Part shown: one piece after another, positions 4,951 through 38,397 of the stretch
How positions within the stretch are numbered: position 1 is the first letter of the stretch
How the letters are laid out: each line of letters opens with the position of its first letter
Notes under the pieces: generated by a model
Told to the model about the DNA's origin: nothing
Database searches by the model: none
What the model saw: only the letters and a program-made list of their open reading frames with translations
Assembly (NCBI RefSeq): GCF_000745015.1
Contig: NZ_JQNA01000002.1
Span: 1,674,001-1,738,000, forward strand
Direction: 5' to 3'
Length of the DNA stretch: 64,000 bases
DNA from: Burkholderia sp. 9120
GTDB lineage: Bacteria; Pseudomonadota; Gammaproteobacteria; Burkholderiales; Burkholderiaceae
Made by a program: the position numbers and the translations under genes

Positions 4951-6690
4951 TCACTGCTCCTTCATCAACGACGTCAGCGTCGACGCCGCGATGGGTAGCA
5001 CCTCGACCTGCGGCGTCGCCTGAATCGACATCATCGCGCTGTTGGCCGCTTCCGCCCGCGTGTTGCCGACGATATCCGGCACATCGAGCTGACGCACCAG
5101 ATGACCCGCGAGCCGCAACGACAACGCGGCGATCGTGATGGTCGGGAAGTTCGCGCCGACCGTCGGAAACACCGAACTGCCGCCCACATACAGATTGCTG
5201 ATGCCATGCACCTTGCAATCGCGATCCACCACGCCTTCGCGCGGCGAGTCGTGCATGCGTGTGGTGCCCATGTGGTGCCACGTGCCCTCCAGCTTCGTCG
5301 GCCATGCGCGGCCTTCGAGCGGCGCGTCGAGTTGCACGTCGGCGACGCCGGCCAGTTGCAGCTCCTGCGCGAGCAGCGCGAAGGTTTTGTCGAACGTGCG
5401 TTGCACCTGGTCGCCCAGACGCCACTCGACCCGCACGCGCGGCATGCCGAAGCGGTCGCGTTTATCGGCCGACAGCGTGACGCGGCTATCCGGATCGGGC
5501 ACGGCTTCGACGATCGCCTGCAGCGTCACGTCGGTGATCAACGCAGGCCATTGCAGCAGGCGCGTCAACCCGTAACCCACGGTATCCAGCGGATGCGCGA
5601 TCATCGTCTCGATGTCCCGCTTCAAACTGCGCCCGGGCTGATCCTTCTGCAACAATGCTTCCTTGCAATGGATCAGCGCTTCGGAACCCGCGCTGCCCTC
5701 GCCGTACCATTTCGAATAGAGCCACACGCGGGAATTCAGCAGCTTCTCGCGCGCCATCCATTCCTGCTTCGGCGCGAACTGCGACGAGATCTTCGTGCCG
5801 TGCGCCGACACCGCGGCGTTCTGGTAGTGATACTTGATGTCGTACAGCTTGTTGCGCGCGTTGCCCGGACGAAAGCGGACCTTGCCCGACATCATGCGCG
5901 GATGATCCATGAAGTAGCGGCCCACCAGATCGTGCGCATTGCCGAGGCCGGCCGCCTGCACGTCGTTCGACGCGAGCAGCAGGCGCGCATTTTCGATCCC
6001 GCCGGTCGCCAGCACGAAAATCTTCGCCTGCATCGTGAGGCGGCGGCCACTGATCGTGCCGACTTTCACGCCGGTAATCGTGGTGCCGTCGGCGTTGGCG
6101 TCGATGTTCAACACGTTCGCATGCAGGTACACGCGCACCCGCGACGATTGCGACAGCTCGTCGCGATACACCTTGCCGAAACGCACCGGCGGGCTGAACT
6201 GCGCGACCGTGTCGCGCATGTCGCCGGTCGAGAGCGGCAGGCGGCGCACGTCGGGACGACCGATCTCGCGTTCCCAGTAAGCGGGGTCGAAATTCTGCGG
6301 GCCGAGCTTCAGCAGTTCATGCGTGCGCGCGTAGTACGGCGCGAGTTCGTCGAGACCGAACGGCCAGCCGCTGTGCGCAATCCAGTCGCGCTTCTCGAAG
6401 TCCCACGGATCGAGCGGACGGCACCAGCCACCCCAACAGTTGCTGCTGCCGCCAAAATAACGGCTGCGCGAGCCATCCGCGAACGAGTACGGTAAGCCGG
6501 CATTTTCGCCGCGATAGAGGTCGCGCGTTTCGTCGTCGGGACCGAAGCCGCCGCTCTCGAGCATGCAGGCGTCCACGCCCGCCCTCGACAGTTCGAGCGC
6601 CAGCGTAATGCCGGCCACGCCCCCACCGATAATGCAGACCGTCGTGTCAATGACCGTGTTCTGAGCAACCGTACGAGTGTCGATAAACAT
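4951..6690 (-). CDS. GMC-family FAD-dependent oxidoreductase
   Basis: This 579-residue protein has an N-terminal dinucleotide-binding motif (IIGGGVAG, residues 21-27) and a FAD-contact stretch, RYFGGSSNCWGGWC. The C-terminal GMC_oxred_C region has HHMGTTRM near residue 472 and NLYVGGSSVFPTVGANFPT. Those His and Asn residues correspond to the catalytic pair of glucose/choline-type oxidases and sugar dehydrogenases. There is no signal peptide, so it is cytoplasmic or membrane-associated. Such enzymes recur in exopolysaccharide loci, where oxidation of a sugar hydroxyl is a reasonable inference. It lies 228 bp downstream of the WcaF-like gene on the same strand. Substrate and electron acceptor are unknown. 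Confidence 0.85.
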   Translation of the reverse strand: MFIDTRTVAQNTVIDTTVCIIGGGVAGITLALELSRAGVDACMLESGGFGPDDETRDLYRGENAGLPYSFADGSRSRYFGGSSNCWGGWCRPLDPWDFEKRDWIAHSGWPFGLDELAPYYARTHELLKLGPQNFDPAYWEREIGRPDVRRLPLSTGDMRDTVAQFSPPVRFGKVYRDELSQSSRVRVYLHANVLNIDANADGTTITGVKVGTISGRRLTMQAKIFVLATGGIENARLLLASNDVQAAGLGNAHDLVGRYFMDHPRMMSGKVRFRPGNARNKLYDIKYHYQNAAVSAHGTKISSQFAPKQEWMAREKLLNSRVWLYSKWYGEGSAGSEALIHCKEALLQKDQPGRSLKRDIETMIAHPLDTVGYGLTRLLQWPALITDVTLQAIVEAVPDPDSRVTLSADKRDRFGMPRVRVEWRLGDQVQRTFDKTFALLAQELQLAGVADVQLDAPLEGRAWPTKLEGTWHHMGTTRMHDSPREGVVDRDCKVHGISNLYVGGSSVFPTVGANFPTITIAALSLRLAGHLVRQLDVPDIVGNTRAEAANSAMMSIQATPQVEVLPIAASTLTSLMKEQ

Positions 6691-6918
6691 CCCCTGCTCC
6701 CGTCTTCTTCATGCATTTCCGGCGTGCGTCCCTGGCGCTTGCCGACCCGCCCGGATCGGCCAAGCAGACTCACGCGCGCGTCGCGACCCGGCGCCGTCGG
6801 CGTCGCCGCGGGCGTCGACCGGACGGCATCGGCGTTCCCATGGCGGCGCCCGGCATGTTCCGGACAGCACGACTTCGGCCTCCTCAGCGTAAAAACGCTG
6901 CGGTTCTATGTCTGTGGT

Positions 6919-7539
6919 TCAGGTCACTGAAGTAAACCGTTTCCGAATGAAACGGCACGGATTGCCGCCATACACGCCCTCGGCTTCGAGCGAACGATGC
7001 ACGACCGACAACGGCGTCACCACCGCCGAACGGCCGATCGTCACACCCATCTGCACGACGCACTTCGAGGTGATCCACACCCCGTCTTCAATAACGATCG
7101 GCGCGACCTGCAAATCCATCGTGCCGCTCATATCGTGCGAGCCGGCGGTCAGGAACGTGCCTTGAGAAATGCAGACGTTCGAGCCGATGCGGATCGGCGC
7201 CTGGTTGTAGATCCACACGTCCACGCCGAACCAGCACTTGTCGCCCACTTCGAGATTCCAAGGCGCCTTTACGCGGATCGGATGCACGAACCGGCAACCG
7301 TTGCCGATCTTCGCGCCGAACAGGCGTAACAGCGCGACGCGCACCGCCGACAGCGGCAGCAGTTTGTTGTTGATCACGCAAGCTTCGAGCACGAACCAGA
7401 TCAGTTCGATCAGCGGGCCGCGCGCCGCGCGATAGTTGCCTTTTCCAGCGAGACTCAGGTCGATGACACGACCTGTTTCGTGCGCCTCTTCGGCTTGCGG
7501 AGCACATCCGATCTGCGGATCGTCGGCAACGTTACCCAT
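6919..7539 (-). CDS. WcaF-like hexapeptide-repeat acetyltransferase
   Basis: The protein is 206 residues from the ATG at 7539, which has GGAG 7 bp upstream. A GTG at 7587 would add 16 residues. The C-terminal two thirds is a left-handed beta-helix of hexapeptide repeats (for example PIRIGSNVCISQGTFLTAGSHD and GVTIGRSAVVTPLSVV) with the VYGGNPCRFIRKRF ending typical of the xenobiotic/serine acetyltransferase group. The N-terminal region resembles the colanic-acid acetyltransferase WcaF. It likely transfers acetyl from acetyl-CoA to a sugar of the repeat unit in the cytoplasm. It is divergent from the small secreted protein at 7725, with 185 bp between them. Confidence 0.85.
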   Translation of the reverse strand: MGNVADDPQIGCAPQAEEAHETGRVIDLSLAGKGNYRAARGPLIELIWFVLEACVINNKLLPLSAVRVALLRLFGAKIGNGCRFVHPIRVKAPWNLEVGDKCWFGVDVWIYNQAPIRIGSNVCISQGTFLTAGSHDMSGTMDLQVAPIVIEDGVWITSKCVVQMGVTIGRSAVVTPLSVVHRSLEAEGVYGGNPCRFIRKRFTSVT

Positions 7540-7724
7540 CAGCTTTCTCCGAACCACGAACGGTGGTAAACAGATTGCAGGCCACACTGCAGTTTCCTTA
7601 CATTATGTTGCGGCGCCTTGCGCGACTTTGTGGCGTGGCCGTGTGGGCAAGCGTTTTGGCGGCTACGCGCGGCATGGATGGCGCACGATAGCTGTACCGT
7701 GACCGCATCACCCGGGGGACCACA

Positions 7725-8219
7725 ATGAACAACTCGCTTCGGCAACCCGCCACCTGGCTGTTTCTCGCACTTAGCGCAAGCGTCGTACCGGCACTCGCAT
7801 TCGCGCAGAACAATCCCGCACCGGCCGCTAACGCCGGCACGAGGTACGGCACCCTCCCGCAAGCACCCGTCGATCGTCGCGCCAAACAGCGCACCAGCGA
7901 ACAAACCCTGCTCGGCGCACCGCGTCCTTACGGCACCGCCGACATGCAGCAAGGCGATACGGACGACGCGCAACGCACCGCCCTGCTCAACGAACAACGC
8001 ATGACCGTGCTGGGTGGCGGGCAAGGCGCGCAACCCGCAGCGCTCGGCAGGGGCAACGGCAAGGCGCCTGCGCCCGGCGCGGCGCAACTGCGGGTGGCCG
8101 ACCAGGCAGGACCGCAACTCAAGGCCGCCGACGGGCTGACGCCCGAAGGCGCCGTGAAGAACACGTACGCCGATCCGTACGCAACGGGCAAGCACGCCGT
8201 CTATCGTTCCCCGTGGTAA
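7725..8219 (+). CDS. Small exported protein of unknown function
   Basis: This 164-residue protein starts with a clear Sec signal peptide (MNNSLRQPATWLFLALSAS to about AFAQ, cleavage near residue 28). The mature part is rich in Ala, Gly, Pro and Gln with no membrane segment and no cysteine, and it looks largely disordered. It ends HAVYRSPW. A GGGGGA site precedes the ATG. I do not recognise the family. It is the only plus-strand gene inside an otherwise minus-strand EPS block, between the acetyltransferase and a WcaI-like glycosyltransferase, so a role at the cell surface linked to the polymer is possible but unproven. Confidence 0.7.
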   Translation: MNNSLRQPATWLFLALSASVVPALAFAQNNPAPAANAGTRYGTLPQAPVDRRAKQRTSEQTLLGAPRPYGTADMQQGDTDDAQRTALLNEQRMTVLGGGQGAQPAALGRGNGKAPAPGAAQLRVADQAGPQLKAADGLTPEGAVKNTYADPYATGKHAVYRSPW

Positions 8220-8251
8220 GTGCGCATTCATGACGTGGGCCGCTTGCCGGA

Positions 8252-9583
8252 TCAATCCGGCGCGGCTTCCTCCGCCGTGGCCGGTTTGCGCCGGCGCCGG
8301 GCCGCCGCGGTCGAATGCCGAGCACCGAAAAACGGCGCTTCGGCTTTGACCCGTTCGCGTGGTGCGTCTTCACGTCCACCCAGGCGCTCCTCGAACGTGC
8401 GGATCGTCGCCTCCGGCGAGAGCGCACGCTCCGCATAACTGCGCGCGGCCTTGCCGAGTGCCGCACGACGTTCGGCATCGCCCGCGAGCATGGTGAGCGC
8501 CGCCACCAGCGCCTTGGCTTTGTCCGGCGGCACCACCACACCGCGCGGCGCGACCGCTTCGTAGAGCGCCGTGCCGCGACGCGCCATGGCCACGGTCGCA
8601 CGGCCGCTCGCGAACATGCCGGTGAGCTTGGACGGCATCACCAGATCCGCCGCGTCGCCGCGTTGCGGCAGCACGTGAATGTCGGCGAGATTGAGTAATT
8701 CGTTCAGACGCTCGGTGGGCTGCAACGGCATGAAAATGCAGTTGCTCAAGCCCGCGCAACGTTCGAGCAGACTTTCGCGCGCCGCGCCGCTGCCGCAAAA
8801 AACGAACGTGAGATCGGTCCGCTCGGCCAGCATCACGGCCGCGTCGGCGAGCGTTTCGATCCCCTGCTTCGCGCCCATGTTGCCGGAGTACAGCACCACC
8901 TTCTGCCCGGCGGGAATCCCCAGTTCACGGCGATAGTCGCTGGCGCGCGAGAGCGGAAAAATCGCCGACACGTCGACCCAGTTCGGCAGGCAAACAATGC
9001 GCGAAGGCGCCACACCCTTGGCCGCCGCGCGCGCGCTCATCTGCCGCGTGATCGACGACACCGCATCGAACCGCCGCAACAGCGTGCTTTCGATCCAGCG
9101 CGCAAAACGCGCGCCGCGCGGGCTTTTCAGCAGGCCCAGTTCGAATGCCGCGTCGACCTCGTAGTCCTGAATGTGCAGCCATGCGCGCGCGCCGGTAACG
9201 CGTGCGAGCGTCAGCGCGGCGGGCGCACACATCAAGGTGGGAGCGATCAGCATGACCGCGTCGGGACGCCATACGGCCTGCCAGGCGATCAAGGGAAGCG
9301 AGCTCAGCGCGAAGCTCGCGAGGTGCACCATGCGCTTCAGGCCGCTCGGCCGCGACGGCACCCACAGCGGTGCGCGCCACAGCGATACGCCGTCGCGCAT
9401 TTCGCGCTGATAGCGCCACGCCGCGTAGCCCGCCGTCACGCGCCACTCCGGGTAATAAGGCGGTGCGCACACCACACGCACCTCGTGCCCCCTGCGGGCT
9501 AGCAGCACGGCCATTTCCGCCGTGTACTTGCCTGTCCCCGTCAGTTCCGGCGCGTAGTTGATGCCGTAGATCAGGATCTTCAT
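8252..9583 (-). CDS. WcaI-like glycosyltransferase (GT4)
   Basis: This 443-residue protein begins MKILIYGINYAPELTGTGKY, the signature start of the WcaI/WbuB group, in which the GTGKY loop binds the nucleotide sugar. The C-terminal half has VVLYSGNMGAKQGIETLADA and the donor-binding region VMPSKLTGMFASGRATVAMA. WcaI acts in colanic acid synthesis as a presumed fucosyltransferase. With gmd and fcl upstream in the same transcription unit, use of GDP-fucose here is a sensible inference. The last 50 residues are basic, low-complexity sequence beyond the usual family end (family proteins are about 400 residues). It lies 55 bp downstream of the preceding glycosyltransferase gene. Confidence 0.88.
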   Translation of the reverse strand: MKILIYGINYAPELTGTGKYTAEMAVLLARRGHEVRVVCAPPYYPEWRVTAGYAAWRYQREMRDGVSLWRAPLWVPSRPSGLKRMVHLASFALSSLPLIAWQAVWRPDAVMLIAPTLMCAPAALTLARVTGARAWLHIQDYEVDAAFELGLLKSPRGARFARWIESTLLRRFDAVSSITRQMSARAAAKGVAPSRIVCLPNWVDVSAIFPLSRASDYRRELGIPAGQKVVLYSGNMGAKQGIETLADAAVMLAERTDLTFVFCGSGAARESLLERCAGLSNCIFMPLQPTERLNELLNLADIHVLPQRGDAADLVMPSKLTGMFASGRATVAMARRGTALYEAVAPRGVVVPPDKAKALVAALTMLAGDAERRAALGKAARSYAERALSPEATIRTFEERLGGREDAPRERVKAEAPFFGARHSTAAARRRRKPATAEEAAPD

Positions 9584-9638
9584 TATGGCTGCCAGAACAG
9601 GTTAGGGCTTCACAGGCGCGACGCCGCAACAGCGCGCG

Positions 9639-10781
9639 TCAATCGCTCAACATCAGGGCACAGCCTCGGGCAATATTCGCGGCGGCCGACGGCGGATCGA
9701 AACGGCGGATCACGTCCATGCAACGATGTGCGGTGCCGCCGGCGTCGGCGAAGGCTTCCATGGCCTTGAGCATCGTGCGCTGCAAGCCGGCCACGTCGCC
9801 CGCTGTAAACGCATAACCGCTCACGCCGTCGATCACCAGTTCCGGCACGCAACCGCAACTCTCGCTGACCACCGCCGGGCAACCGTGCGCGAGCGCCTCG
9901 TTGACCACCAGCCCCCACGGTTCGCTATAGCTCGGCAGCACCATGCAGGTCGCGCCGTAGTACTCGCGCGTGAGCGGCTCGTCCTGCAAACTGCCGGCGA
10001 ACGTCACCGCGTCTTCGAGCGCGAGCTCGGCCACCTTCGCATGCAGCACCTCGGCCATCGGTCCGGTGCCGACAATGCGCAGCTTCGCCGCGGGAATACG
10101 CCGCCGCAAACCGGCGAACGCTTCGATCAGCGTGCCGATGCCCTTTTCTTCCGAGAGCCGCCCGACGTACAGAAACACCGGCGGATTACCGGCACGCGCG
10201 GCGACCCGCTCGACCAGCGCACGCTCCGGCGAAAACGAGCCGGGTAGCGCGGCCGCCTGGCACGGCACGAAGATCTTGTCGCGCTTCGCCCCGAGCGACA
10301 GCAGATACTCGCGGCTGCGTTCGCCGAAACCGAAATAGCCGTCGCACAGCGAGAAAAACACCCGCTTCGGGATCGACGTGAGCAGCTTCTTGGGCCGGTC
10401 GCGCGCGGTGGAATCGCAAAAAACCGCGCGCCGTTTGCCGGTCACGATGCACGCCGCCAGCATCGCCCAGTATTCCGGGCGGTGATAACCGGGCAGCACG
10501 ATCAGATCCGACTTGGCACGCAGCACTTCCCACGTGAGCCGGGCGATCAGCTTCATTCTCGGCACGTCTTCGTAGCAGCCGTCGAAGAGTTTCTGCATCG
10601 GATAACGATGGAACGAGTAGTCCACGTCGGAGAAGCCGATCCGGTCATGCTCGGTATCGGCGATCTGCACCATCGAATAGCGGATCGCGCCCGACGCCGA
10701 GATGTTATGCAGGGCGGAGAACACCACACCCTTATGGCGCGACCATACGACGTTGTGGAAGATCGTGACTGACGCGGTCAT
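9639..10781 (-). CDS. Glycosyltransferase family 4 (GT-B)
   Basis: The protein is 380 residues from the ATG at 10781 (MTASVTIFHN), which has GGAG about 10 bp upstream. Sequence further upstream is open but lacks protein-like character. The C-terminal half contains PVFLYVGRLSEEKGIGTLIEAF and MVLPSYSEPWGLVVNEALAHGCPAV, the GT4 E-x7-E donor site. An expected role is addition of one sugar to the undecaprenyl-linked repeat unit. It lies between fcl (94 bp upstream) and the WcaI-like gene (55 bp downstream), on the same strand and probably in the same operon. Confidence 0.87.
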   Translation of the reverse strand: MTASVTIFHNVVWSRHKGVVFSALHNISASGAIRYSMVQIADTEHDRIGFSDVDYSFHRYPMQKLFDGCYEDVPRMKLIARLTWEVLRAKSDLIVLPGYHRPEYWAMLAACIVTGKRRAVFCDSTARDRPKKLLTSIPKRVFFSLCDGYFGFGERSREYLLSLGAKRDKIFVPCQAAALPGSFSPERALVERVAARAGNPPVFLYVGRLSEEKGIGTLIEAFAGLRRRIPAAKLRIVGTGPMAEVLHAKVAELALEDAVTFAGSLQDEPLTREYYGATCMVLPSYSEPWGLVVNEALAHGCPAVVSESCGCVPELVIDGVSGYAFTAGDVAGLQRTMLKAMEAFADAGGTAHRCMDVIRRFDPPSAAANIARGCALMLSD

Positions 10782-10875
10782 GTGTATGCCACTCCAAAAA
10801 AGTCGTCCATGCATGCGTGGCGCGGTCCGCGCACGCACTGCGTTTGAGGCATTGCCAACAGCCGCTGTCGCGCGG

Positions 10876-11832
10876 CTATGCCTGCAACGCGGCGGCGCTC
10901 GAGCCGGCGTGCAGTTCGACGAATTCCCTATACGTGGCCGCGATACCCTCTTCAAGCCCGATCGTTGCGCGCCAGCCCATCTGCGCAAGCCGCGAGACGT
11001 CGAGCAGCTTGCGCGGCGTACCGTCGGGTTTCGAGGCGTCGAACACCAGTTCGCCTTCGAAGCCCACCACCTTGCAGATGCATTCGGCCAGCTCGCGAAT
11101 CGACAGATCCTCGCCGACGCCGACGTTGAACAGCCCTTCCGTCACGTTGTGTTCCAGCATGAACAAGGTCGCGGCGGCCAGATCGTCGACATGCAGAAAC
11201 TCGCGGCGCGGCGTGCCCGAGCCCCACACCGTCAAGCTCGCCGCGCCGCTCAGGCGCGCTTCGTGCGCCTTGCGCAGCAGCGCCGGCAACACGTGGCTAC
11301 TGGCCAGGTCGTAGTTGTCGTTCGGGCCGTACAGATTGGTCGGCATCAACGCGACGTACTGCGTGTTGTACTGGCGGTTGTAGGCGTCGCACAGCTTGAC
11401 GCCGGCAATCTTGGCGATCGCGTACGCGTCGTTGGTCGGCTCCAGCGGCGAGGTCAGCAGATACTCCTCGCGGATCGGCTGCGGACATTGCTTCGGGTAA
11501 ATGCACGACGAGCCGAAGAACACCAGCCGCTCCACCTGCGCGCGATACGCCGCGTGAATCACGTTGGCTTCGATCACCAGGTTTTGATAGATGAACTCGG
11601 CCGGGCGCGTCGCGTTGGCGAGAATGCCGCCCACGCGCGCGGCGGCCAGCAGCACCACGTCGATCCGTTCGGTTTCGAAAAAGCGCTGCACGGCGGCCTG
11701 ATCCGTGAGATCGAGCTCCGCGTGCGAACGGGTGATCACGTTCGGATACCCCGCGGCGGTGAGTTTCCTCATCAGCGCGGAGCCGACCATGCCGCGATGG
11801 CCCGCGACGAAAATGCGTGCTTGTTGGTTCAT
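10876..11832 (-). CDS. fcl: GDP-L-fucose synthase
   Basis: This 318-residue extended-SDR epimerase/reductase converts GDP-4-keto-6-deoxy-mannose to GDP-L-fucose with NADPH. The sequence shows the Rossmann motif GHRGMVG (residues 11-17), the active-site stretch FFGSSCIYP with Ser108 and Cys110, and the YAIAK dyad (Tyr137, Lys141). Family length is 310-325, so the gene is intact. Only 5 bp separate it from the end of gmd, so the two enzymes of the GDP-fucose pathway are co-expressed. The product should feed the fucosyltransferases of this locus. Confidence 0.97.
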
Positions 11833-11837
11833 GGCCG

Positions 11838-12956
11838 TTACTCGTGATGTTCCAGCGCCGTGAATCCGGCCAGCGTGACCAGCGCGTCACGTCTCGCGAT
11901 CTGATAGTCCGAGCGCACCATCTCCTTGACGAGCGACTCGAACGAGGTGGTCGGCTTCCAGCCGAGCTTCGCATGCGCCTTCGACGGATCCCCGAGCAGC
12001 GTCTCGACTTCGGCGGGCCGGAAGTAGCGCGGATCGACGCGCACGATCACGTCGCCGGGCGACATCTTGATCTCGCGCCCTTCGACCTTCTCGACAATGC
12101 CGACTTCATCCACGCCGCTGCCTTCGAAGCGCACGGTCACACCCAGCTCCGCCGCCGCGTGCTGCACGAACTGCCGCACGCTGTACTGCACGCCGGTGGC
12201 GATGACGTAGTCCTCCGGCATCTCCTGTTGCAGCATGCGCCACTGCATCTCCACGTAGTCACGCGCATGGCCCCAGTCGCGCAGCGCGGACAGATTGCCG
12301 AGATAAAGCGTCTTCTGCATGCCGACCGCGATCCGCGCCACTGCGCGCGTGATCTTGCGCGTCACGAAGGTCTCGCCCCGCACCGGCGATTCGTGATTGA
12401 ACAGAATCCCGTTGCACGCATAGAGCCCATAGGCTTCGCGGTAATTGATGGTGGTCCAGTACGCGAACAGCTTGGCGACCGCATAAGGGCTGCGCGGATA
12501 GAACGGCGTGGTCTCCGACTGCGGCACCTGCTGCACGAGGCCGTACAGTTCCGAGGTCGAAGCCTGATAGAAACGTGTCTTCTTTTCCAGCCCGAGAATC
12601 CGGATCGCTTCAAGAATCCGCAGCGCGCCGAGGCCGTCCGCGTTGGCGGTGTATTCCGGTTCCTCGAACGACACCGCGACGTGGCTTTGCGCCGCGAGGT
12701 TATAAATCTCGTCGGGCTCCACGCGTTGAATCACGCGCAGCAGGCTGGTGGAGTCGGTCAGATCCGCGTGGTGCAGAAAAAGCCGTTGGTCCGGATCGTG
12801 GGGATCGCGGTAAAGGTGATCGATACGGTCTGTATTGAACAGAGACGACCGGCGTTTGATGCCATGCACGTCGTAATTCTTGGCGAGCAACAGCTCCGCC
12901 AGATACGACCCGTCCTGTCCGGTGATGCCGGTGATCAGCGCGACCTTGCGTTCCAT
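11838..12956 (-). CDS. gmd: GDP-mannose 4,6-dehydratase
   Basis: This 372-residue extended SDR performs the first step from GDP-D-mannose to GDP-L-fucose or other 6-deoxyhexoses. It has GITGQDG (residues 10-16) for NADP binding, the STSE stretch around residues 133-136, and Tyr158/Lys162 in SPYAVAK. It also has the [16 protein letters not shown] substrate region typical of Gmd. Full length for the family. It is downstream of the tyrosine kinase gene (81 bp) and tightly followed by fcl. GDP-mannose comes from the guanylyltransferase at 18051-19655. Confidence 0.97.
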
Positions 12957-15272: not shown

Positions 15273-15321
15273 TTTCTTCACCCAACAAAGCCCGGCGGTT
15301 CAAGGTCAATTTGTACGTTTT

Positions 15322-16461: not shown

Positions 16462-16532
16462 GATGTTTCCTCCTTGCGCCACGGCGTTGGTCCTCAGAGG
16501 AGGTCGCGCCAAGCGTGCTTGTTAACTACTTC

Positions 16533-20757: not shown

Positions 20758-20772
20758 AGTCATCCTCGTCAT

Positions 20773-21546
20773 AAAACGGATCTACTTTTCACCTTGAACG
20801 GCCACACAGAGAGGCCGGCTCTGTGCAGTGCATCATAGTCACCGTAAATCAAGCATTTAGCCGCCATGACCGATAGAGCAGACATGTTGGCGTGCGAATG
20901 GGGTGACCAGCCAGTGATTTTCGGAACAATTCTTCCCGGTCCGAATTTTCAGCGAATTAATTGCCGATTCGACATATGAAAGAATTGGCGTTCTGCGAAT
21001 GTTAATGCAAATAAAAACGCCATTTCGTTCGCCAGCACACATACGGCAACCACTCGAAATACCGAAGCTACAATTTATTTTCAACCGACATTTGACCGTT
21101 TTGAAGCCGTTTTTTCTTGTGATAAATGATCAGCGAGTACAATTTGCTTTACTGCTTCAGCATTCGCCTGCCTGACGCCAATTCGACTTTCTTCTGACGA
21201 TACGAACAGGGAACCGCATTAACGAAAAGCATCGCCTAATATAAGCACTTCACAGCGCTGCAAAATTATTTAATTGGTTGTTATTGGATCGGCTGAATAT
21301 AAAAGCGACGATTAATGTTTCAAACGTGAAACACGGTAAAAAGACTGCTTTAACGAACCCGGCAATAGACGGGCCAATGGCGGAATGTGTCGGCTGCAAG
21401 ACGGTACATTTCCGCCAGGGGATTGCGGAAATACACTATGTTGTTTGCGCAACACCTCGACGCGCGAAGCCGGTCGAGGCGGGTTCGACCTGGTGCGCTA
21501 GCAGTCCGCCGACGAATTCGCGCACGAAGAACCAGACGGGGAACAC
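20773..21546. promoter_or_regulatory. AT-rich intergenic region before the secreted glycosidase gene
   Basis: These 774 bp are clearly poorer in GC than the neighbours, most strongly from about 20880 to 21330. I see no convincing gene; short open frames on both strands lack coding features. The region contains a perfect palindrome at 21316-21333. It probably holds the promoters of the AraC-type regulator (minus) and the glycosidase (plus), and could bind an H-NS-like silencer. Confidence 0.45.
21316..21333. promoter_or_regulatory. Perfect palindrome, possible operator
   Basis: TGTTTCA-AACG-TGAAACA is a 7-4-7 inverted repeat, 213 bp upstream of the glycosidase start at 21547 within the AT-rich leader. 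Its symmetry fits a dimeric DNA-binding protein. I do not recognise the regulator. There is no T-tract, so it is not an ordinary terminator. Confidence 0.4.
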
Positions 21547-23972: not shown

Positions 23973-24119
23973 ATGAACGGCCTTGCATGGACCTTGCTGG
24001 TGCTGGCTGCGATGGTCGGCGCGTTTCTGTTCGCGACGATCGGCGCGGTGTTGCTCGCGCTGTTCCTGGCGAGCGTGACGAGCCGGCTGACTAAAAACGA
24101 TGAGCATCGCGACTATTAG
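23973..24119 (+). CDS. Small single-pass membrane protein
   Basis: A 48-residue frame (MNGLAWTLLVLAAMVGAFLF onward) has one long hydrophobic stretch (residues 4-34) and a short charged tail, SRLTKNDEHRDY. It lies 119 bp after the glycosidase and 117 bp before the Nudix gene on the same strand. The upstream Shine-Dalgarno is weak. The clean split between hydrophobic and charged parts favours a real gene, but the family is unknown to me. Confidence 0.45.
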   Translation: MNGLAWTLLVLAAMVGAFLFATIGAVLLALFLASVTSRLTKNDEHRDY

Positions 24120-24125
24120 TGCTGG

Positions 24126-24161
24126 TGTGGTTGTGACTGTGGCTGTGACTGTGGTTGTGGC
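24126..24161. repeat. Tandem repeat, three 12-bp units
   Basis: Three copies of a unit close to TGTGGYTGTGAC run head to tail just after the stop of the 48-residue membrane protein. They are non-coding and purine/pyrimidine-skewed (almost no A or C on the plus strand). Confidence 0.7.
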
Positions 24162-24236
24162 GACACGTTGACGACGCCTGGCGCCTGAGCCGTACTTAAG
24201 CGATGCCCAAACACCGCCCGTTTTGCCGGAGATCAC

Positions 24237-24689
24237 ATGCTGACCGAGATGGACTTTCTGGACATCGTCCGCCTGACGCCGCTGATCGCGATCGATCTGA
24301 TCGTCAGCGATCACCAGGGCCGCGTGCTGATCGGTCATCGGCGCAACCGGCCGGCGCGCGGTACGTGGTTCGTGCCCGGCGGACGCATCCATAAAGACGA
24401 AACGCTCGACACCGCGTTCGCACGAATCGCCGACGCCGAACTGGGCATTGCCAGATTGAAGCGGTCGGGCGCGCGCTTCGAGGGCGTGTTCGAGCATCAC
24501 TACAGCGACAACTTCGCCGACGAGCCCGACGTCTCGACTCACTACATCGTGCTGGCGTATGCGCTGACGCTCGCCAGCAGCGCGCCGATCGGGCGACCCG
24601 ACCAGCACAGCGGTTATCTCTGGCTCACGCCAGCGGAATTGCTCACGCGCGCCGACGTCCACGAGAACACCAAGGCTTACTTCCGTTAG
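24237..24689 (+). CDS. gmm: GDP-mannose mannosyl hydrolase (Nudix family)
   Basis: This 150-residue protein has the Gmm layout. The Nudix segment GGRIHKDETLDTAFARIADAELG (residues 48-70) departs from the standard box in the way seen in GDP-mannose hydrolases, with RIADAELG replacing REUXEEXG. The N-terminal part has DLIVSDHQGRVLIGHRRN and ARGTWFVPGG. The family hydrolyses GDP-mannose or GDP-glucose to GDP and the sugar and is found in colanic acid loci, where it may set GDP-mannose and GDP-fucose pools. GGAG lies 6 bp before the ATG. The nearby manC, gmd and fcl genes support the assignment. Confidence 0.92.
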   Translation: MLTEMDFLDIVRLTPLIAIDLIVSDHQGRVLIGHRRNRPARGTWFVPGGRIHKDETLDTAFARIADAELGIARLKRSGARFEGVFEHHYSDNFADEPDVSTHYIVLAYALTLASSAPIGRPDQHSGYLWLTPAELLTRADVHENTKAYFR

Positions 24690-24691
24690 CC

Positions 24692-24723
24692 GATTCGCTG
24701 ATTCGCTGATTTGCTGATTCGCC
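24692..24723. repeat. Tandem repeat, four 8-bp units
   Basis: Four near-identical copies of GATTCGCT (third copy GATTTGCT, fourth GATTCGCC) directly follow the stop codon of the Nudix gene. No hairpin with a T-tract is formed, so this is not an obvious terminator. Confidence 0.7.
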
Positions 24724-24865
24724 GTGCAAGCTTTCATCGAGCTGCGCGGTTCGACACCCGCGCTCGCCCACCCGCTCGCGAACTCCTCCCTACTGTGAGT
24801 TCGCCAACGCGCCACGCCATTCCGCTGAAGTATGATTGAGCCCTCCTTCAGGGCATCGAATCATT

Positions 24866-27247
24866 ATGCGATCAACGGCAGCCAGGCTAGTTCGCGTTTC
24901 ATCCTTTGCTTTGCTTGTGATTGTGTGGCTCACCGCGCTGCCGGGCGTCGCACGCGCGGCCGGTTGTAACGCCGGCACGCTGGTCACCGTAGTGGCCCAT
25001 CTCGACGACGATCTGCTGTTCGTCGACCCCGCCATCGCCGAGCATCTCGACGCCGGCTGGTGCGTCACCACCGTGCATCTGATCGGCGGCGCCAACGGCG
25101 GCAACTTCGCTTATGTGCAAACGCGCGAACGTGCGTCGCGGCTTGCCTATGCACGCATGGCCGGCGTGCCGAACGACTGGATCGAGTCGAACGTGACGAT
25201 CGCCGGCAAGCTGGTGCACCAGATGGTGCTGAAGGCGAAGCCTCAACTGCGCCTGCTCGAATTGCGTCTGCCCGGCGGTGGCGTGCGCGGCGGCCGCGTA
25301 CCGCTCGGCCTGTTGTGGGAGCAGCACGCCACGCTCTCCACCTACCCCATGAACGACAACGGCACCGTGCGCCTGCAATACGATCGCGACGGCTTGTCGG
25401 CCACACTGCAGGCGATCCTCGCGCAGGCGACGCTCATCTACACGCTCAATCCGGACACCGTGCCGTTCATCGAGCATCCCGATCATATTTACGCCGCGCG
25501 CATTACGCGGCACGTCGCGCAGACGCTCGGCAAAAGCGTGCCGATCGTCTATCACGTGACCTATCCCACCGGCGGCTGGCCCGCTAATCTCCCGAGCGCC
25601 GAAGTGCAGCGCAAGCGCGATATCGTCGCCAGCTATTTTTCGATCGACGGCAGCGAGTCGTCGCATGTGTTCGGCGAGTTTCAATGGGACGGTAACTGGA
25701 TCGCGCGCCGCTATGCATTCGCCGATCGCAGCGATCGTCGCGTCGCGGATTTCCAGTCGCATCCGATCCAGCTTTTCAACGCGGCCGCAAGCGAATGTCT
25801 GACCTCCGGGGGATCCGGCCGCGCGCCGATACTTGCCGCCTGTAACGGCTCAACCGATCAGCAATGGCGCTGGGACCCGCTCAGTGCGTATCCCGGCAAT
25901 TCACGCAATGCCGCGCTCGTCAGCGTGGCGACGTCGCAATGCATTGCGGAACGCGACGGCTATCTGACCAGCGAGACTTGCGATCAGTGGGACATCGCGC
26001 AACGCTGGACGCCGTGGGACTTCGGCCTCGTCTATACGCCCATGCGTCATTGTCTCGGCGAGACCGGCGGCAAGCTCACCATGCGCGGTTGCGCGGCGCT
26101 GACCACGCGCTTTCGCTGGGCGGCCACCCAGCGCACGCAGGCGAACGATCTGCGGCTGGCGGGCGCAATGACGGGCGACGTGAGCGGCACCGGCAAGCAA
26201 TCCGCTGTGTATGTGCAGCGCCAGCACGACGGCCCCGGCTTCAACGTCTACGCTGCGTCGCTCGCGAAAAGCGCACCGCCTGCGCTGTGGTACGCGAGCG
26301 CCGTGCCGTTCGATCCGCAAGCCACCGCGCCGAGTTGCGCGGGCAACGCGTTGTGCTTCGACAGCGTGCGCTTTCTGCTCGCCGATTTCGACGGCGACGG
26401 CCGCGCGGATCTGATGGTGATCACGGCACGTCAGGGCGGCACCGCGTTCTGGTTGCTGCGCAGTAACGGCAATCGCTTCGAAGCGCCGCGCCTGTGGCTA
26501 CAAACCGGGCCCGAGTTCAAGCCGGAACTGACGCAGCAATATGTGGCCGCGGATTTCACCGGAACCGGTCGCGCCAGTGTGCTGATCGCGCAGAAGCGGG
26601 CCGATAGCGGACTCGATCTTTGGGTCGCCGCATCGCAACGCGCGTCCGCGTCCGCACCGACGCTTTTCGCTCAGGCGAAAAACCTCGCGCAGAACGCCGA
26701 TCTGTTAGCGCTCAAGACATCGGGTTCACGTGCATCGCTGGTGGCAATGGAAGAACGCGACGGACGGCTTGCCGTCACGCCGATTGCCAACGACGGCACG
26801 CGCATGAACCTCGGCGAGCGCAAACCATTGCCCGCGAGTTTCATCCCCGGCTTCGTGAAGGTCGCGACCGGCGCAGTGCAGGGACCGGACAGCAACACGT
26901 TGATTCTGCTGACACCGCATCTCGACGGCTCGAACGACGACGCGTTGATCGACGTCGCCACCCTCGACATGGCGCAACCTGCAAGCGCACCGATCCACGC
27001 GGCAGCGTTGCACGGCATGTCGTGGTCGGATGTGTTTCCGGTGTTCGTGCGCGACCGGCATCGTGCGGCGCTCGTGCTGTATCGGCGAGTTGACGCGACG
27101 CTGGGGAATTTCTATTTCACCGGCGGCGCACCGGCGCTGACGCTCTATCCGGCGGGACAAAATCTCGCGCTCGGCGCCGCGCAGGAATTGGGCGAATTGC
27201 CGGGACTGTTTTCGGAGACGCTGCGAATCGACCGCCTCGCGCAATAG
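24866..27247 (+). CDS. Exported PIG-L deacetylase with lectin-like and FG-GAP-like regions
   Basis: The protein is 793 residues from the ATG at 24866, chosen because a Sec signal peptide (MRSTAARLVRVSSFALLVIV to ARAAG) follows at once; a TTG at 24836 is open but adds no useful sequence. The PIG-L/LmbE domain (about 37-290) has VAHLDDD (His45, Asp47, Asp48) and EHPDH (His204, His207), the zinc ligands and base of N-acetylglucosamine deacetylases. Next comes a region with ECLTSGG and DQQWRW (about 300-430) resembling ricin-B lectin repeats. A third part has LLADFDGDGRADLMVI (about 510-530), an FG-GAP/VCBS-like calcium repeat. It may deacetylate and bind the exported polymer. Confidence 0.85.
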   Translation: MRSTAARLVRVSSFALLVIVWLTALPGVARAAGCNAGTLVTVVAHLDDDLLFVDPAIAEHLDAGWCVTTVHLIGGANGGNFAYVQTRERASRLAYARMAGVPNDWIESNVTIAGKLVHQMVLKAKPQLRLLELRLPGGGVRGGRVPLGLLWEQHATLSTYPMNDNGTVRLQYDRDGLSATLQAILAQATLIYTLNPDTVPFIEHPDHIYAARITRHVAQTLGKSVPIVYHVTYPTGGWPANLPSAEVQRKRDIVASYFSIDGSESSHVFGEFQWDGNWIARRYAFADRSDRRVADFQSHPIQLFNAAASECLTSGGSGRAPILAACNGSTDQQWRWDPLSAYPGNSRNAALVSVATSQCIAERDGYLTSETCDQWDIAQRWTPWDFGLVYTPMRHCLGETGGKLTMRGCAALTTRFRWAATQRTQANDLRLAGAMTGDVSGTGKQSAVYVQRQHDGPGFNVYAASLAKSAPPALWYASAVPFDPQATAPSCAGNALCFDSVRFLLADFDGDGRADLMVITARQGGTAFWLLRSNGNRFEAPRLWLQTGPEFKPELTQQYVAADFTGTGRASVLIAQKRADSGLDLWVAASQRASASAPTLFAQAKNLAQNADLLALKTSGSRASLVAMEERDGRLAVTPIANDGTRMNLGERKPLPASFIPGFVKVATGAVQGPDSNTLILLTPHLDGSNDDALIDVATLDMAQPASAPIHAAALHGMSWSDVFPVFVRDRHRAALVLYRRVDATLGNFYFTGGAPALTLYPAGQNLALGAAQELGELPGLFSETLRIDRLAQ

Positions 27248-27306
27248 CGCGAGCGGATCGATTCGACAGGATTCGGACGGGGACTAAAACAGAGTACAGG
27301 CAGAGT

Positions 27307-28392
27307 TCAGGCGGAGACTTGCAACGGCTGCACGAATTTACGCGCGATCGTCATATAGCGATCCGCCGTGTCGTGCAGCGTGTAGCCCGACAGTTGCCGA
27401 TCGGCGCGCGGCATGTCGAGCGCATGCAGCAAGGCGCTGCCGTACGCATCGGGATCGGCGGTATCGACCAGACTCACGCTGCCGAATGCCGTCGCGAACC
27501 CGAACGAAGCAATCCGGTTCGCGACGACAGGAATACCCGAGGCCAGCGCTTCCAGAAAGCCAATACTCTGCGCCTCGAAGCGCGACGGCATCGCAAAGAC
27601 GCGCGACGAACGCAGAATCGCGGCCACATCGGAGCGCGGCCCACACACCTGCACCTTGTCCTGCAAGCCGAGTTGCTCGACGAGCGACACCACCGCCGCG
27701 TGATAGCCGACATCTTCGACCACACCGCACAACAGCAGACGCGCAGCCGGTTCGGTTTGCAGCACGCGTTCGAAAGCGCGCACCGTATGCAGTTGGCTCT
27801 TGCAATCCATATAGCGGCCGAGCTGGACGATCTGTTTGGCCGGCACGTGCAAGGCGGGCGCCGGCGCGTCGCCGTATTCGGCGAACTGCGAGGCGTCCAC
27901 GCCGTTGGGAATCACCACCATCGACGGATGCCGGCCGATCTCGCGCAGGTAGTCGTCGATATTTTGTTGCGACACGCCGATGATCGCCTGCGCGCGACGT
28001 GACAGCAGACGCTCGGCGCGCTTCAACGCGCCGTTCTCGAAGTCATTGACGCCCGAATGCATCACCCACGCGATCGGCGTATGAACCGGCAGCAGGCGCA
28101 CGTACATCGCGGCGAGCGTGGCATGCGCGACGATAAAGTCCGGCCGGAAACGACGCACCACGCGATACAGGTGCAGCAGCTTGCCGACCCGCCCATAGCG
28201 AACCTCGGGAAACATGCAGGTGACACCCGCCGCCTGCAGTTCGGCGCGGATATCCGCGAAGTCGGTCTGCTGCGGCAGCAGCGACGTCATACAGACTTCA
28301 TGCCCGCCGCGCTGATGATGAATGGCGAGCCCTTTGACGAGTACTTCTGCCCCGGACAACCGCGGTGCGTGAACCAGTTGAAGAATTCTCAC
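27307..28392 (-). CDS. Glycosyltransferase family 4 (GT-B)
   Basis: The protein is 361 residues from a GTG at 28392 (reads MRILQLVHAPRLSGAEVLVK), with GAGAGA about 8 bp upstream. The frame is open further upstream, but that sequence is unlike the family start. The C-terminal half shows KQIVQLGRYMDCKSQLHTVRAF and FAMPSRFEAQSIGFLEALASGIPVV, the GT4 donor site. It transfers a sugar, probably during EPS assembly, and is convergent with the PIG-L gene (59-bp gap, no terminator seen). It stands alone on its strand, with the AT-rich leader of the second glycosidase gene upstream. Confidence 0.87.
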   Translation of the reverse strand: MRILQLVHAPRLSGAEVLVKGLAIHHQRGGHEVCMTSLLPQQTDFADIRAELQAAGVTCMFPEVRYGRVGKLLHLYRVVRRFRPDFIVAHATLAAMYVRLLPVHTPIAWVMHSGVNDFENGALKRAERLLSRRAQAIIGVSQQNIDDYLREIGRHPSMVVIPNGVDASQFAEYGDAPAPALHVPAKQIVQLGRYMDCKSQLHTVRAFERVLQTEPAARLLLCGVVEDVGYHAAVVSLVEQLGLQDKVQVCGPRSDVAAILRSSRVFAMPSRFEAQSIGFLEALASGIPVVANRIASFGFATAFGSVSLVDTADPDAYGSALLHALDMPRADRQLSGYTLHDTADRYMTIARKFVQPLQVSA

Positions 28393-29247
28393 GATTGATC
28401 TCTCTGGATAACCGCCTATTTTGCGCAACGGATGAAGAAGCCGATCCCGCCAGGTTCGGGCCCCAAATGGCGCCTGCTTCCCACCATCTTTTATCTGGCG
28501 CGTTGCCGGTACGGAACGCGTCATGGTCTCGGTAAAACAGCGACAGATTCACTACACAATCCGAGTCGCGAAGAAACCTTACACCGAAGGTACAGCCCTT
28601 CTCCGCCATCTCCAAGGCTTTGCCCGCTATGCAATGAGCGCTAACGCCCATTTCTCTGCGGATTGGGCCCGCTCACTTGGTTAGGTATCCGTTCCATAGT
28701 TTTTCGACCCCATTTCAAAATGGCGGAAAAGTACTAGTTTCTCCTTACATAAGTTTTGATTGGATCAATGCAATTAGTACCGCGTATTTGTTCATACGTA
28801 ACGACTCGTTACTTCTTTTAAACAGACGAGTCGGTATGGTGACGGTCGATTCTTCCCAATCGCTGCTTTATGTTACTTACAGAACAGTAAAAGCTTCATT
28901 GATCAGTGCAGCGAGTTCGCAAGCTGCGATCACTTGCGCTGTTCTGCGAAACGTCGGTTGTTTTCGTCGTACCTTCCCCCGGTCGTTCGATTCCGCCAGG
29001 CCAAACGTGACTCACGTCACGGTGGATTCGTACGACTTGAAATTCGCTGAAGAGAAACGTGTTTGGGGCCGACAACCCGGGAAGGCATCACCCTGGCGCA
29101 ACCGGACAGTTGCGCACACCCGATGGCCAGTGCCGACCTTTCGTTGATCGGCCGGTCTGCAAATGAACCCCGTTGTTCGCCCGGACTCCCCACGCGCCTT
29201 GCGCGATGAGCTGGGCGAATCATCAGCAACGCAAGGCTGACAGATCG
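28393..29247. promoter_or_regulatory. Intergenic region with AT-rich core and several palindromes
   Basis: This is 855 bp between divergent genes, the glycosyltransferase (minus) and the lipoprotein glycosidase (plus). The part from about 28680 to 28910 is AT-rich, as in the leader of the paralogous glycosidase. It contains palindromes at 28710-28723 (CCATTT-CA-AAATGG), 28798-28812 (GTAACG-ACT-CGTTAC) and 29006-29021 (CRP/FNR-like). Open frames in it show no coding character. Confidence 0.45.
29006..29021. promoter_or_regulatory. CRP/FNR-type binding site
   Basis: CGTGA-CTCACG-TCACG matches the TGTGA-N6-TCACA architecture of CRP/FNR family operators with perfect symmetry, differing only in the outermost base of each half. 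It lies 226 bp upstream of the lipoprotein glycosidase start. In Burkholderia, CRP/FNR regulators that respond to c-di-GMP are known to control exopolysaccharide genes; that this site belongs to one is inference. Confidence 0.45.
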
Positions 29248-31194
29248 ATGAAATCGCAACTACTCGTACTCTCGACCCTATCGCTCGCGCTCGCAGCCTG
29301 CGGCGGCGGTGGCGGTGGTAACGGCGCCACCAGCACGGCGGCGACCCAGGCCAACGGCGGCACCACCGCCAACGGCACGAACGGCACAGGCGGCTCGACC
29401 GGCAGCGGCAGCACCACGCTGAACGCCGCGGGCACCTCGAACGCGGCCATGAACTGCGCGGCGCCGGCCAACTCGTCGGGTTCGGGCAGCGCCACGATTT
29501 CCGCCGACACGCCCAGCGCCGACGGCACCCGCATCTTCCCGTCGGGCAGCACGTTCCAGCTCGCGTTCAGCACCAACGTGCCGGGCGCGGACACGCTGAA
29601 CTGGGCCGTCACCGACACGCTCGGCAAAGTCGCCGCCAGCGGCAGCGCACCGGTGCCGAACGGCTCTACCACGATCACGCTGAATTGCTCGTCGACGCTC
29701 GCCGGCTATTTCGCCGCGACCGGCACGCTGGCGAAGAACGGCGGCCAGTTGCCGCAAGCCGGCACACGGCCGGTGGGTATCGCGACCTTCGGCGTGCTGG
29801 CGAATCTGTCCGGCGTCGTGCCGGCGGTCACCTATGCGCGTCAGGAGCAGCATCGCTTCGGCATGCAGGGCGCGAACGACAACGGCCCGCTGCTTGCCGA
29901 CCTCGGCATCTCGTCGACGATCGACGACCGCCAGATGTCGACCATGGAGCCGAACGGCGCCAACACGTTCAACCCGGCAACCAGCACGCTCGATCCGTTC
30001 TACAAGTCCGGCAACGTGATGCGCCTGATCCGCCTCGACGGAATTCCCGCGTGGGCGAGCAGCACCGGCGCGTTCCAGGACGACGTCAGCGCGCCGACGA
30101 GCCTGTCGTACTACCAGAACTACATGAGCCGCGTGGGCACCGAATCGAACACGATTCGCTCGACCTACTTCCCGAACCAGTCGGCCAACTACTACCAGGT
30201 GACGTGGGAGCCGAACGAGTTCTGGACCGACACCGACGCCAATTTCGTCGCGCTGTACCAGTCCGTCTATCAAGGCCTGCACTCGACCGATCCGCACGCG
30301 GTGGTGATGGGCCCCACCGACGCGTTCCCGAGCCTGACCACGACGCGCCTGAAGCGCCTCGCGCCGCTCGGCTTCGGTCAGTACATCGACGCGGTCGCCA
30401 CGCACGGTTACTACGACGCCGGCACCTCGCCGTCGCATCCGCCGGAGCGTTACGACAGCGATGCGTCCACCGCCTCGGGTTCGCTGCGCGGCCAGATGCA
30501 GGCGCTGCGCGCCGAAATGGCCACCGACTACCGTCCGGGCATGAAGCTGTTCTCGACCGAGGCCGGCATCAGCTACGACCTCGGCAGCGCGTACGGCCCG
30601 AACTATCCGACCGCCAACGTGCTGTACGCACAAGCGGCTGTCGCGGCGCGCATGCACATCATCACGCTGGGTGAAGGTGCGAATCAGACCTACGTGTTCT
30701 ACGGCGCGGATTATCCGGGCGAAGTCGGCTACGGCACGTTCTTCGATCTGAGCGACGCGCAAGGCGCGTTCGGCGCGACCAACCTCAGCCCGAAGCCGGT
30801 CGCCATGGCACTCAGCGCAATGACGCACACGCTCGACGGCACCACGACGCTCGGTCCGGTGAACGGCGCGCCGAACGGCGTCTATGCGTACGCGTTCCAG
30901 CAACTGAACAACGGCGCGGTGATCACGGCTTTGTGGACGCACAGCAATAACGCGTGGAGCGCGAGCAGCGGTTTCAGCTCGACCTATAGCGTGCCGTACA
31001 CCCTCACCGTCGATGCGCCGGGCACGAGCGGTACGGTAAAGCTGATCGACATGATGGGCAATGCGTCGACCGTGAACTACAGCAACGGTGCGTTGACGCT
31101 GAACCTGACCGAATCGCCGGTGTATGTGGTGTCGAACAATGCGTCGATTGCTCAGGCGAACTCGACGGTGCCGGTGGGTTACGTCGGTATGTAA
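29248..31194 (+). CDS. Lipoprotein clan GH-A-type glycoside hydrolase-like protein
   Basis: The protein is 648 residues from the ATG at 29248, picked because the lipobox LAAC (Cys18) follows. A low-complexity Gly/Thr/Asn/Ser linker (19-66) precedes a beta-rich module (about 68-165). The catalytic barrel-like domain has VTWEPN (Glu321) and STEAG (Glu438), 117 residues apart, and THGYYD between them. A C-terminal beta domain ends with SPVYVVSNNAS. It closely matches residues 165-768 of the protein at 21547 but lacks that protein's N-terminal Cys module. As a lipoprotein it would be membrane-anchored, most likely in the outer membrane. A role in trimming the EPS is inferred from location. Confidence 0.83.
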   Translation: MKSQLLVLSTLSLALAACGGGGGGNGATSTAATQANGGTTANGTNGTGGSTGSGSTTLNAAGTSNAAMNCAAPANSSGSGSATISADTPSADGTRIFPSGSTFQLAFSTNVPGADTLNWAVTDTLGKVAASGSAPVPNGSTTITLNCSSTLAGYFAATGTLAKNGGQLPQAGTRPVGIATFGVLANLSGVVPAVTYARQEQHRFGMQGANDNGPLLADLGISSTIDDRQMSTMEPNGANTFNPATSTLDPFYKSGNVMRLIRLDGIPAWASSTGAFQDDVSAPTSLSYYQNYMSRVGTESNTIRSTYFPNQSANYYQVTWEPNEFWTDTDANFVALYQSVYQGLHSTDPHAVVMGPTDAFPSLTTTRLKRLAPLGFGQYIDAVATHGYYDAGTSPSHPPERYDSDASTASGSLRGQMQALRAEMATDYRPGMKLFSTEAGISYDLGSAYGPNYPTANVLYAQAAVAARMHIITLGEGANQTYVFYGADYPGEVGYGTFFDLSDAQGAFGATNLSPKPVAMALSAMTHTLDGTTTLGPVNGAPNGVYAYAFQQLNNGAVITALWTHSNNAWSASSGFSSTYSVPYTLTVDAPGTSGTVKLIDMMGNASTVNYSNGALTLNLTESPVYVVSNNASIAQANSTVPVGYVGM

Positions 31195-38383: not shown

Positions 38384-38397
38384 CGATTAAGGTGAGC

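Follow-up and report, generated by a model that had tools for sequence, protein, structure and literature searches.

We describe here a locus of ca. 35 kb in Burkholderia sp. 9120, a Paraburkholderia of soil type, found in a window of 64,000 nucleotides (the whole stretch of DNA analysed, positions 1,674,001 to 1,738,000 of contig NZ_JQNA01000002.1) that lies within a 6.58-Mb contig of a genome totalling 8.46 Mb. Judging by its genes, the locus is a complete Wzx/Wzy-type exopolysaccharide (EPS) cluster. Our reading, to which we would give a probability of roughly two in three, is that it makes a probably fucose-containing polymer and carries its own exported enzymes for processing that polymer, namely a predicted N-deacetylase and two hydrolases resembling PslG, the GH39 hydrolase encoded in the Pseudomonas Psl operon. 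What can be read from the sequence itself is a GDP-fucose pathway, a set of assembly and export genes, predicted export signals, conserved catalytic residues and the linkage of the genes concerned.

Gene identities were taken mainly from Pfam and NCBIfam profile searches with curated cut-offs (Table 1). Every gene that had been named in an earlier reading of this DNA (hereafter the original prediction) is present, i.e., those for GDP-mannose and GDP-fucose, priming, export, chain-length control, Gmm, the GMC oxidoreductase, the two hydrolase paralogues and the PIG-L protein. The original prediction had set the borders at 4951 and 31194. The right border is correct, as an amino-acid permease, an SDR and AraC genes lie beyond it, but on the left the locus runs ca. 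3.4 kb past the window. Before position 4951 come, by Pfam, genes for an acyltransferase, a GT4 glycosyltransferase and, between them, a Wzy-like protein (600-4850), and mostly outside the window (G000:C2:1670580-1674438) there are another GT4 gene (GTd), the Wzx flippase and a glycosyltransferase gene running into the window. The Wzx/Wzy end is therefore left out of the narrower range. From left to right the order is acyltransferase, Wzy-like, GTa, GMC, WcaF-like, small exported protein, WcaI-family, GTb, Fcl, Gmd, Wzc, Wza, WcaJ-type, ManC and AraC, followed by hydrolase A, Gmm and PIG-L (all rightward), GTc (leftward) and hydrolase B (rightward). Close relatives of the locus genes are from Paraburkholderia, e.g., P. 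bryophila (97% for hydrolase B) and P. dilworthii (97% for PIG-L).

Table 1. Features of the locus, in window coordinates.
Feature	Position	Strand	Basis and remarks
Acyltransferase (Acyl_transf_3), probable O-acylation of repeat unit	600-1745	-	Pfam E 5.4e-29; position kept in other lineages
Probable Wzy polymerase	2095-3633	+	Weak Wzy_C match under curated cut-off, E 1.4e-5
GT4 glycosyltransferase GTa	3630-4850	+	Pfam
GMC oxidoreductase	4951-6690	-	Pfam GMC_oxred_C; PDB 6a2u E 3.2e-26
WcaF-like hexapeptide O-acetyltransferase	6919-7539	-	NF007797 177.6 bits (below cut-off 192); Pfam Hexapep_2; start set at inner ATG
Small exported protein, 164 aa	7725-8219	+ (against operon)	Sequence; signal peptide seen by eye
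WcaI-family GT4 glycosyltransferase	8252-9583	-	NF007640 above cut-off; TIGR04007 wcaI below
GT4 glycosyltransferase GTb	9639-10781	-	Pfam; start = codon 70 of listed ORF, near alignment start of most relatives
GDP-L-fucose synthase Fcl	10876-11832	-	NF047922 498.6 bits, just under cut-off 500; PDB 1bsv E 3.5e-117
GDP-mannose 4,6-dehydratase Gmd	11838-12956	-	TIGR01472 above cut-off
Wzc-type chain-length tyrosine autokinase	13038-15281	-	Pfam WZC_N, GNVR, Wzz, AAA_31; TIGR01005 above cut-off; equivalog NF008568 below
Wza-type export lipoprotein	15322-16512	-	Pfam Poly_export + SLBB; NF011658 below cut-off
WcaJ-type undecaprenyl-phosphate glucose phosphotransferase (priming enzyme)	16533-17918	-	TIGR03023 above cut-off
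ManC, mannose-1-phosphate guanylyltransferase / mannose-6-phosphate isomerase	18051-19655	-	TIGR01479 above cut-off
AraC-family regulator adjoining core	19744-20772	-	Pfam HTH_18; NF006902 below cut-off
Palindrome GTTTCAAACGTGAAAC between araC and hydrolase A	21317-21332	.	Conserved
TTCCGCCA element, inverted pair upstream of hydrolase A	21378-21417	.	
Hydrolase A (GHa), exported, GH39/PslG-like, core-linked clade	21547-23853	+	Paralogue of GHb; Glu pair; tree
Gmm, GDP-mannose mannosyl hydrolase (Nudix)	24237-24689	+	NF011963 above cut-off
Exported PIG-L protein with ricin-B lectin and FG-GAP beta-propeller domains	24866-27247	+	Pfam; structure model and fold search; start set at inner ATG, ORF listed from 24836
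GT4 glycosyltransferase GTc	27307-28524	-	Pfam
Two TTCCGCCA elements upstream of hydrolase B	28721-28728, 28991-28998	opposite strands	
Palindrome GTAACGACTCGTTAC upstream of hydrolase B	28798-28812	.	Conserved in upstream alignment
Hydrolase B (GHb), GH39/PslG-like lipoprotein with flexible linker	29248-31194	+	Start set at inner ATG, ORF listed from 29173

By sequence, ManC, Gmd and Fcl make up the route from GDP-mannose to GDP-fucose. Since Fcl scores just short of its cut-off and matches 1bsv, a GDP-fucose synthetase structure, very closely, GDP-L-fucose is the likely product, and the polymer of the locus probably contains L-fucose.

Hydrolases A and B were expected to be exported glycosidases. 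They are paralogous and a PslG-like fold was found, but neither reaches any Pfam or NCBIfam cut-off; for the GH39 model PF01229 hydrolase B scores 12.9 bits against a cut-off of 26 and hydrolase A gives no match. In the fold search (modelled for hydrolase B only) the fold was of GH39 type and PslG was among the best matches, next to xylosidases, xylanases and other plant-polymer enzymes. Both expected catalytic Glu residues are invariant in the hydrolase alignment (in which the two proteins of the window are counted twice), and hydrolase A has in addition a Cys-rich module at its N-terminus. We infer that the two are PslG-like retaining endo- or exo-hydrolases. The family comprises 627 matches at E <=1e-10 among 8000 candidates scored (the best 120 are listed), and its members are mostly unnamed or annotated as hypothetical.

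The family Burkholderiaceae was searched, in one set of 249 genomes, for hydrolase, PIG-L, Gmd, Wzc, GMC and GTb. Copy numbers are lower bounds, since the number of candidates scored per genome was capped, at 4 each for hydrolase, PIG-L and Wzc, at 5 for GMC, at 6 for GTb and at 7 for Gmd. As the core we counted a Gmd of at least 76% and a Wzc of at least 47% identity separated by less than 3 kb; the Gmd matches used were the 53 listed ones of at least 80% plus G000:C1 (78%) and G225 (76%), and the Wzc matches the listed ones of at least 54% plus G225 (52%) and G153 (47%). Two more G167 hydrolase fragments and several PIG-L fragments were dropped, and the PIG-L list was completed manually with G167 and G185. 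This core was present in 48 of the 249 genomes, and a recount including other listed matches of the same genomes gave the same 48. Looser limits would add second pairs in G000 and G106 and one genome, G208, without a listed hydrolase.

The hydrolase was found in 45 of the 249 genomes, 43 of which have the core. A hydrolase is found 7.2-9.6 kb from gmd in 41 of the 48 cores. The co-occurrence that the original prediction had proposed to test was thus borne out. The 102 hydrolase matches divide into 52 within 20 kb of a core and 50 elsewhere, and 48 of the latter are still in core-bearing genomes. Several facts weigh against the idea of enzymes dedicated to one polymer. Half of the matches (50/102) lie either at a distance of over 20 kb from a core or on a different contig. 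Two neighbourhoods of off-core copies for which there is annotation show no polysaccharide synthesis genes, and the four neighbouring open reading frames (ORFs) tested at a third copy in our own genome (L097) include none either. Besides, the co-occurrence of hydrolase and core is uncorrected for the relatedness of the genomes; nor can the Fisher p of 1.7e-32 for hydrolase against GMC be taken as a true probability, as the genomes are related. Among the 48 there is also one genome, G020, whose sole hydrolase is on another contig, and another, G209, whose core contig has no hydrolase. The description of the enzymes as a "private" set was too strong, given the 50 off-core matches and the dispersed clade from which hydrolase B comes.

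One could imagine instead that the hydrolases are general scavengers of foreign polysaccharides (plant, fungal or from other bacteria) that stand near the EPS locus by accident. The off-core copies, some of them in unrelated surroundings, would suit such a role, as would the plant-polymer enzymes among the fold neighbours and a relative of hydrolase B near a tannase-family gene (L098). We consider it rather improbable, because only two of the 45 hydrolase genomes (G167 and G215) lack the core, both of them having genes of the system that are fragmentary or interrupted by stop codons, because the place of the hydrolase at 7-10 kb from gmd is fixed in 41 of 48 cores, and because a separate tandem of hydrolases occurs at a second fucose-type locus.

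The tree of 100 hydrolases (SH-aLRT support only, midpoint root) has a branch with 100% support separating 28 sequences from the other 72. The smaller side holds the hydrolase A proteins of 24 loci, that of the window among them, together with the core-linked copies of a Cupriavidus necator plasmid, G248, G106 and G081 (a Caballeronia-type genome). Hydrolase B is on the larger side, beside copies located elsewhere, in a largely dispersed clade that is sister to that of hydrolase A. As to gene order, the run hydrolase A-Gmm-PIG-L-GTc-hydrolase B appears in 23 of 64 loci (a set that includes one weak Lentisphaerae match), all named Paraburkholderia except one "Burkholderia sp. OK233". A contig of P. 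xenovorans LB400 (L023) has this run preceded by ManC and AraC. Hydrolase B is in that place in 3 of the 249 family genomes, our own counted. We read this as hydrolase A being the older partner of the locus and B a later recruit within one Paraburkholderia group. A third clade includes the tandem of three hydrolases in G106 (L099, G106:C69), which stands beside relatives of Gmd, Fcl, WcaI, Wzc and Wzx. The L097 copy (G000:C2:5792796-5794574) is 58% identical to hydrolase B and is flanked by ABC-transporter permease and monooxygenase genes. At L098 (G081:C1:1408000-1427999) the relative of hydrolase B is also close to another Wzc and a GH5/GH39-like gene, perhaps in a different EPS locus.

The exported PIG-L protein was confirmed, and the binding modules predicted for it are of ricin-B and FG-GAP type. 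Its match to the family model PF02585 (37.7 bits) is above the cut-off of 28.2 and the metal-site residues are kept in 121 of 121 aligned sequences. PIG-L enzymes are mostly known for acting on N-acetyl sugars, and this one is probably an N-deacetylase. In 10 of the 11 cases fetched (L073-L083) GTc is its neighbour or close by. The nearest solved relatives of the GMC oxidoreductase are glucose and fructose dehydrogenases, and its sequence has no obvious signal peptide.

PIG-L was found in 32 of the 249 genomes, 28 of them with the core, and GMC and GTb in 38 each. Among the 48 core genomes the nesting is strict, PIG-L occurring within the set with GMC and GTb and this in turn within the set with hydrolase: 28 have all five parts, another 7 all but PIG-L, 8 have core and hydrolase with none of the other three, and in 5 the core stands by itself. 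Five genomes with no counted core have one to three of the parts (G167, G179, G185, G215 and G242) and not all of them fit the nesting; two others (G159 and G202) have a weaker relative of GTb only.

The distribution of PIG-L does not all speak for a deacetylase of this polymer. PIG-L is absent from 20 of the 48 core genomes, and of the 28 with both, 15 have it at 27-92 kb from gmd and 6 on a different contig, 21 in all; it lies 11-12 kb from gmd in six genomes, all of the genus of the window, and 19 kb away at the opposite end of the locus in one Trinickia-type genome. Furthermore, no gene of the locus demands the N-acetyl sugar on which such enzymes would be expected to act. Its distance from the core in these 21 genomes and the absence of any such demand would fit a protein that is mainly a lectin or adhesin of the matrix, its catalytic domain acting elsewhere or mattering little, and the lectin and beta-propeller modules do make up most of its length. 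We find this possible though on balance unlikely, considering the metal site kept in all aligned sequences and the fact that GMC is also present in 30 of the 32 PIG-L genomes, the other two (G167 and G185) having a broken or fragmentary PIG-L.

Two genomes permit a contrast within the locus. G020 and G104 retain Wzc (80 and 86%), Wza and the WcaJ-, ManC- and AraC-type genes, and G020 also Gmd, while in the 40 and 35 kb fetched around them there were no other genes of the window, no hydrolase and no PIG-L (G104 has no hydrolase among the listed matches). From these two cases, hydrolase and PIG-L seem tied to the polymer-specific genes rather than to those of export.

A further link between the hydrolases is the element TTCCGCCA, whose four sites in the 64-kb window (on either strand) are all in the two intergenic regions preceding them. 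Across 21 loci there were 63 sites in 33 kb of hydrolase upstream regions and 4 in 408 kb elsewhere, and a site precedes every one of the 48 in-locus hydrolase genes. It alone among 8-mers occurs in both regions in all 22 genomes compared, the runners-up reaching 13 and overlapping it; the best 8-mer reached 8 of 22 in controls with one region reversed and 4 of 22 in 20 shuffles. L016 (the same strain as L015) and L044 were omitted from the 21 loci, the 22 genomes and the upstream alignment. The araC-hydrolase A gap has two sites also in Caballeronia- and Trinickia-type loci (L087, L089) and none in G248 and G106. It has to be said that TTCCGCCA was chosen after the alignments had been seen. 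Its number in the window is what chance would give (4 against 3.1 expected, reached in 38 of 100 shuffles), so that the placement alone is unusual, and it is rare before other hydrolases, both elsewhere (8/48) and in core-linked copies of other lineages (1/5). We read it as a putative binding site joining both hydrolase units, with the adjoining AraC protein as candidate regulator; as hydrolase B shares the element with A, the two are probably co-regulated. The palindrome GTTTCAAACGTGAAAC is one of four sites of GTTTCANNNNTGAAAC in the genome (control 0).

Besides the GDP-fucose route of ManC, Gmd and Fcl, the sequence shows a line of assembly and export in the WcaJ-type enzyme, several GT4 enzymes, Wzx, the Wzy-like protein, Wzc and Wza, and two acyltransferases and the GMC sugar oxidoreductase also belong to the set. 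If our reading of a polymer-processing locus is right, hydrolases A and B, the first a long-standing partner and the second drawn from a dispersed clade under a shared upstream element, would cut the polymer of the locus beyond the inner membrane, clearing periplasmic material, setting chain length or releasing matrix. Hydrolase B would be tethered by its lipid anchor and flexible linker, probably to the outer membrane. With its lectin and propeller domains the PIG-L protein may bind the polymer, and it may take N-acetyl groups off a sugar restricted to the type of polymer whose synthesis involves GTb and GMC. That the hydrolases act on their own polymer, as PslG does on Psl, has in our view fair support, and we hold the removal of N-acetyl groups from the polymer by PIG-L with less confidence. 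The oxidation of a sugar of the repeat unit by GMC is speculative.

More tentatively, one might see here a polymer-processing system shared by several genera of Burkholderiaceae, in which a GH39-like family of its own, almost confined to polymer-making genomes and multiplied inside and outside the locus, cuts the matrix that PIG-L, GMC and the small exported protein help to deacetylate and oxidise; we regard this wider idea as doubtful. If it were true, the dispersed hydrolases would together form a single set specific for this polymer, with TTCCGCCA joining some of its members. Our analysis offers a predicted function for a protein family that is now mostly nameless and points to a polymer apparently made and trimmed by several genera. 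Hydrolases that cut it would be tools for dissolving biofilms and determining polymer structure, as PslG is for Psl, and the nested presence of hydrolase, GMC and PIG-L provides a comparative set for matching enzyme to sugar.

As to the remaining genes, the Wzx flippase (Pfam Polysacc_synt_3, E 4e-50) is of MOP type, its best NCBIfam match, PRK10459, being below cut-off. The Wzy-like protein has no NCBIfam match, and its position next to glycosyltransferase genes is kept in other lineages. GTc is 52% identical to GTd. The small exported protein, between the WcaF-like and WcaI-like genes, occurs in 10 of 59 genomes, this one counted and all of its genus, with no family match in Pfam or NCBIfam searches; faint matches (E 0.02-0.08) occur at the same place in two other lineages. 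It might, speculatively, be an accessory of export or polymerisation. An ORF listed over it (7539-8255, minus strand) is spurious. To the right of the locus there are a DDE transposase gene (DDE_Tnp_1, 35086-36255, minus strand), two stretches (34001-35000 and 38001-39000) with strong GC and AT skew, and a Wzz-type chain-length match barely over the Pfam cut-off (45991-46926, minus strand). Elsewhere in the genome, G000:C2:3464862-3489579 is a likely further EPS region of at most 25 kb, with a Wzc-like frame containing an internal TAG, a UDP-glucose dehydrogenase and a smaller second PIG-L, and at G000:C1:469296-472684 a second Gmd (78%) adjoins a Wzc (44%), probably in another EPS locus.

The colanic acid (wca/cps) locus of enteric bacteria encodes Gmd, Fcl, Gmm, ManC, WcaI, WcaF, WcaJ, Wza, Wzc and Wzx. 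All ten have counterparts here, Wzx being again of MOP type, although several (Wza, Wzc, WcaF and WcaI among them) score below the cut-offs of the enteric models, and our locus has in addition the GH39-like hydrolases, PIG-L, GMC, the small exported protein and the AraC regulator. In the bce cluster for cepacian, bceC is a UDP-glucose dehydrogenase gene; this genome has five matches to that enzyme, none within C2:1664001-1710000. With Fcl and wca-type genes and no UDP-glucose dehydrogenase, the core is by gene content colanic-acid-like and not cepacian-like; the original prediction had compared it with cepacian loci. That the locus is a variant of the cepacian system seems to us very improbable, in view of this absence and of its Fcl, Gmm and WcaI-, WcaF- and WcaJ-type genes, even if ManC, Gmd, Wza, Wzc, the priming enzyme and acyltransferases are common to it and bce-I/bce-II (PMC7378592, PMC3584063), the first of these sources recording cepacian loci in Paraburkholderia. 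The hydrolases differ from PslG (18% identity) in an added N-terminal part and a lipid anchor, and the locus differs from Psl in its two paralogues, its PIG-L protein and its biosynthesis genes. In Pel, PelA is the hydrolase/deacetylase of an EPS locus; both activities would be present here too, in other enzyme families and on separate proteins. The bec cluster of Burkholderia pseudomallei is an EPS locus with a hydrolase or deacetylase gene, becN; the sugars reported for it are glucose, galactose, rhamnose and mannose, and the terms "deacetylase" and "oxidoreductase" are absent from the main text of its description (PMC5507470). A full-text literature search, which left most subscription journals outside, found no paper on the locus described here. 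That an EPS locus may include a hydrolase or a deacetylase is already known (becN; PslG, PelA). What does appear to be new, as far as our searches show, is the hydrolase family, its lectin-bearing PIG-L partner, their conserved combination and the nested distribution of the parts.

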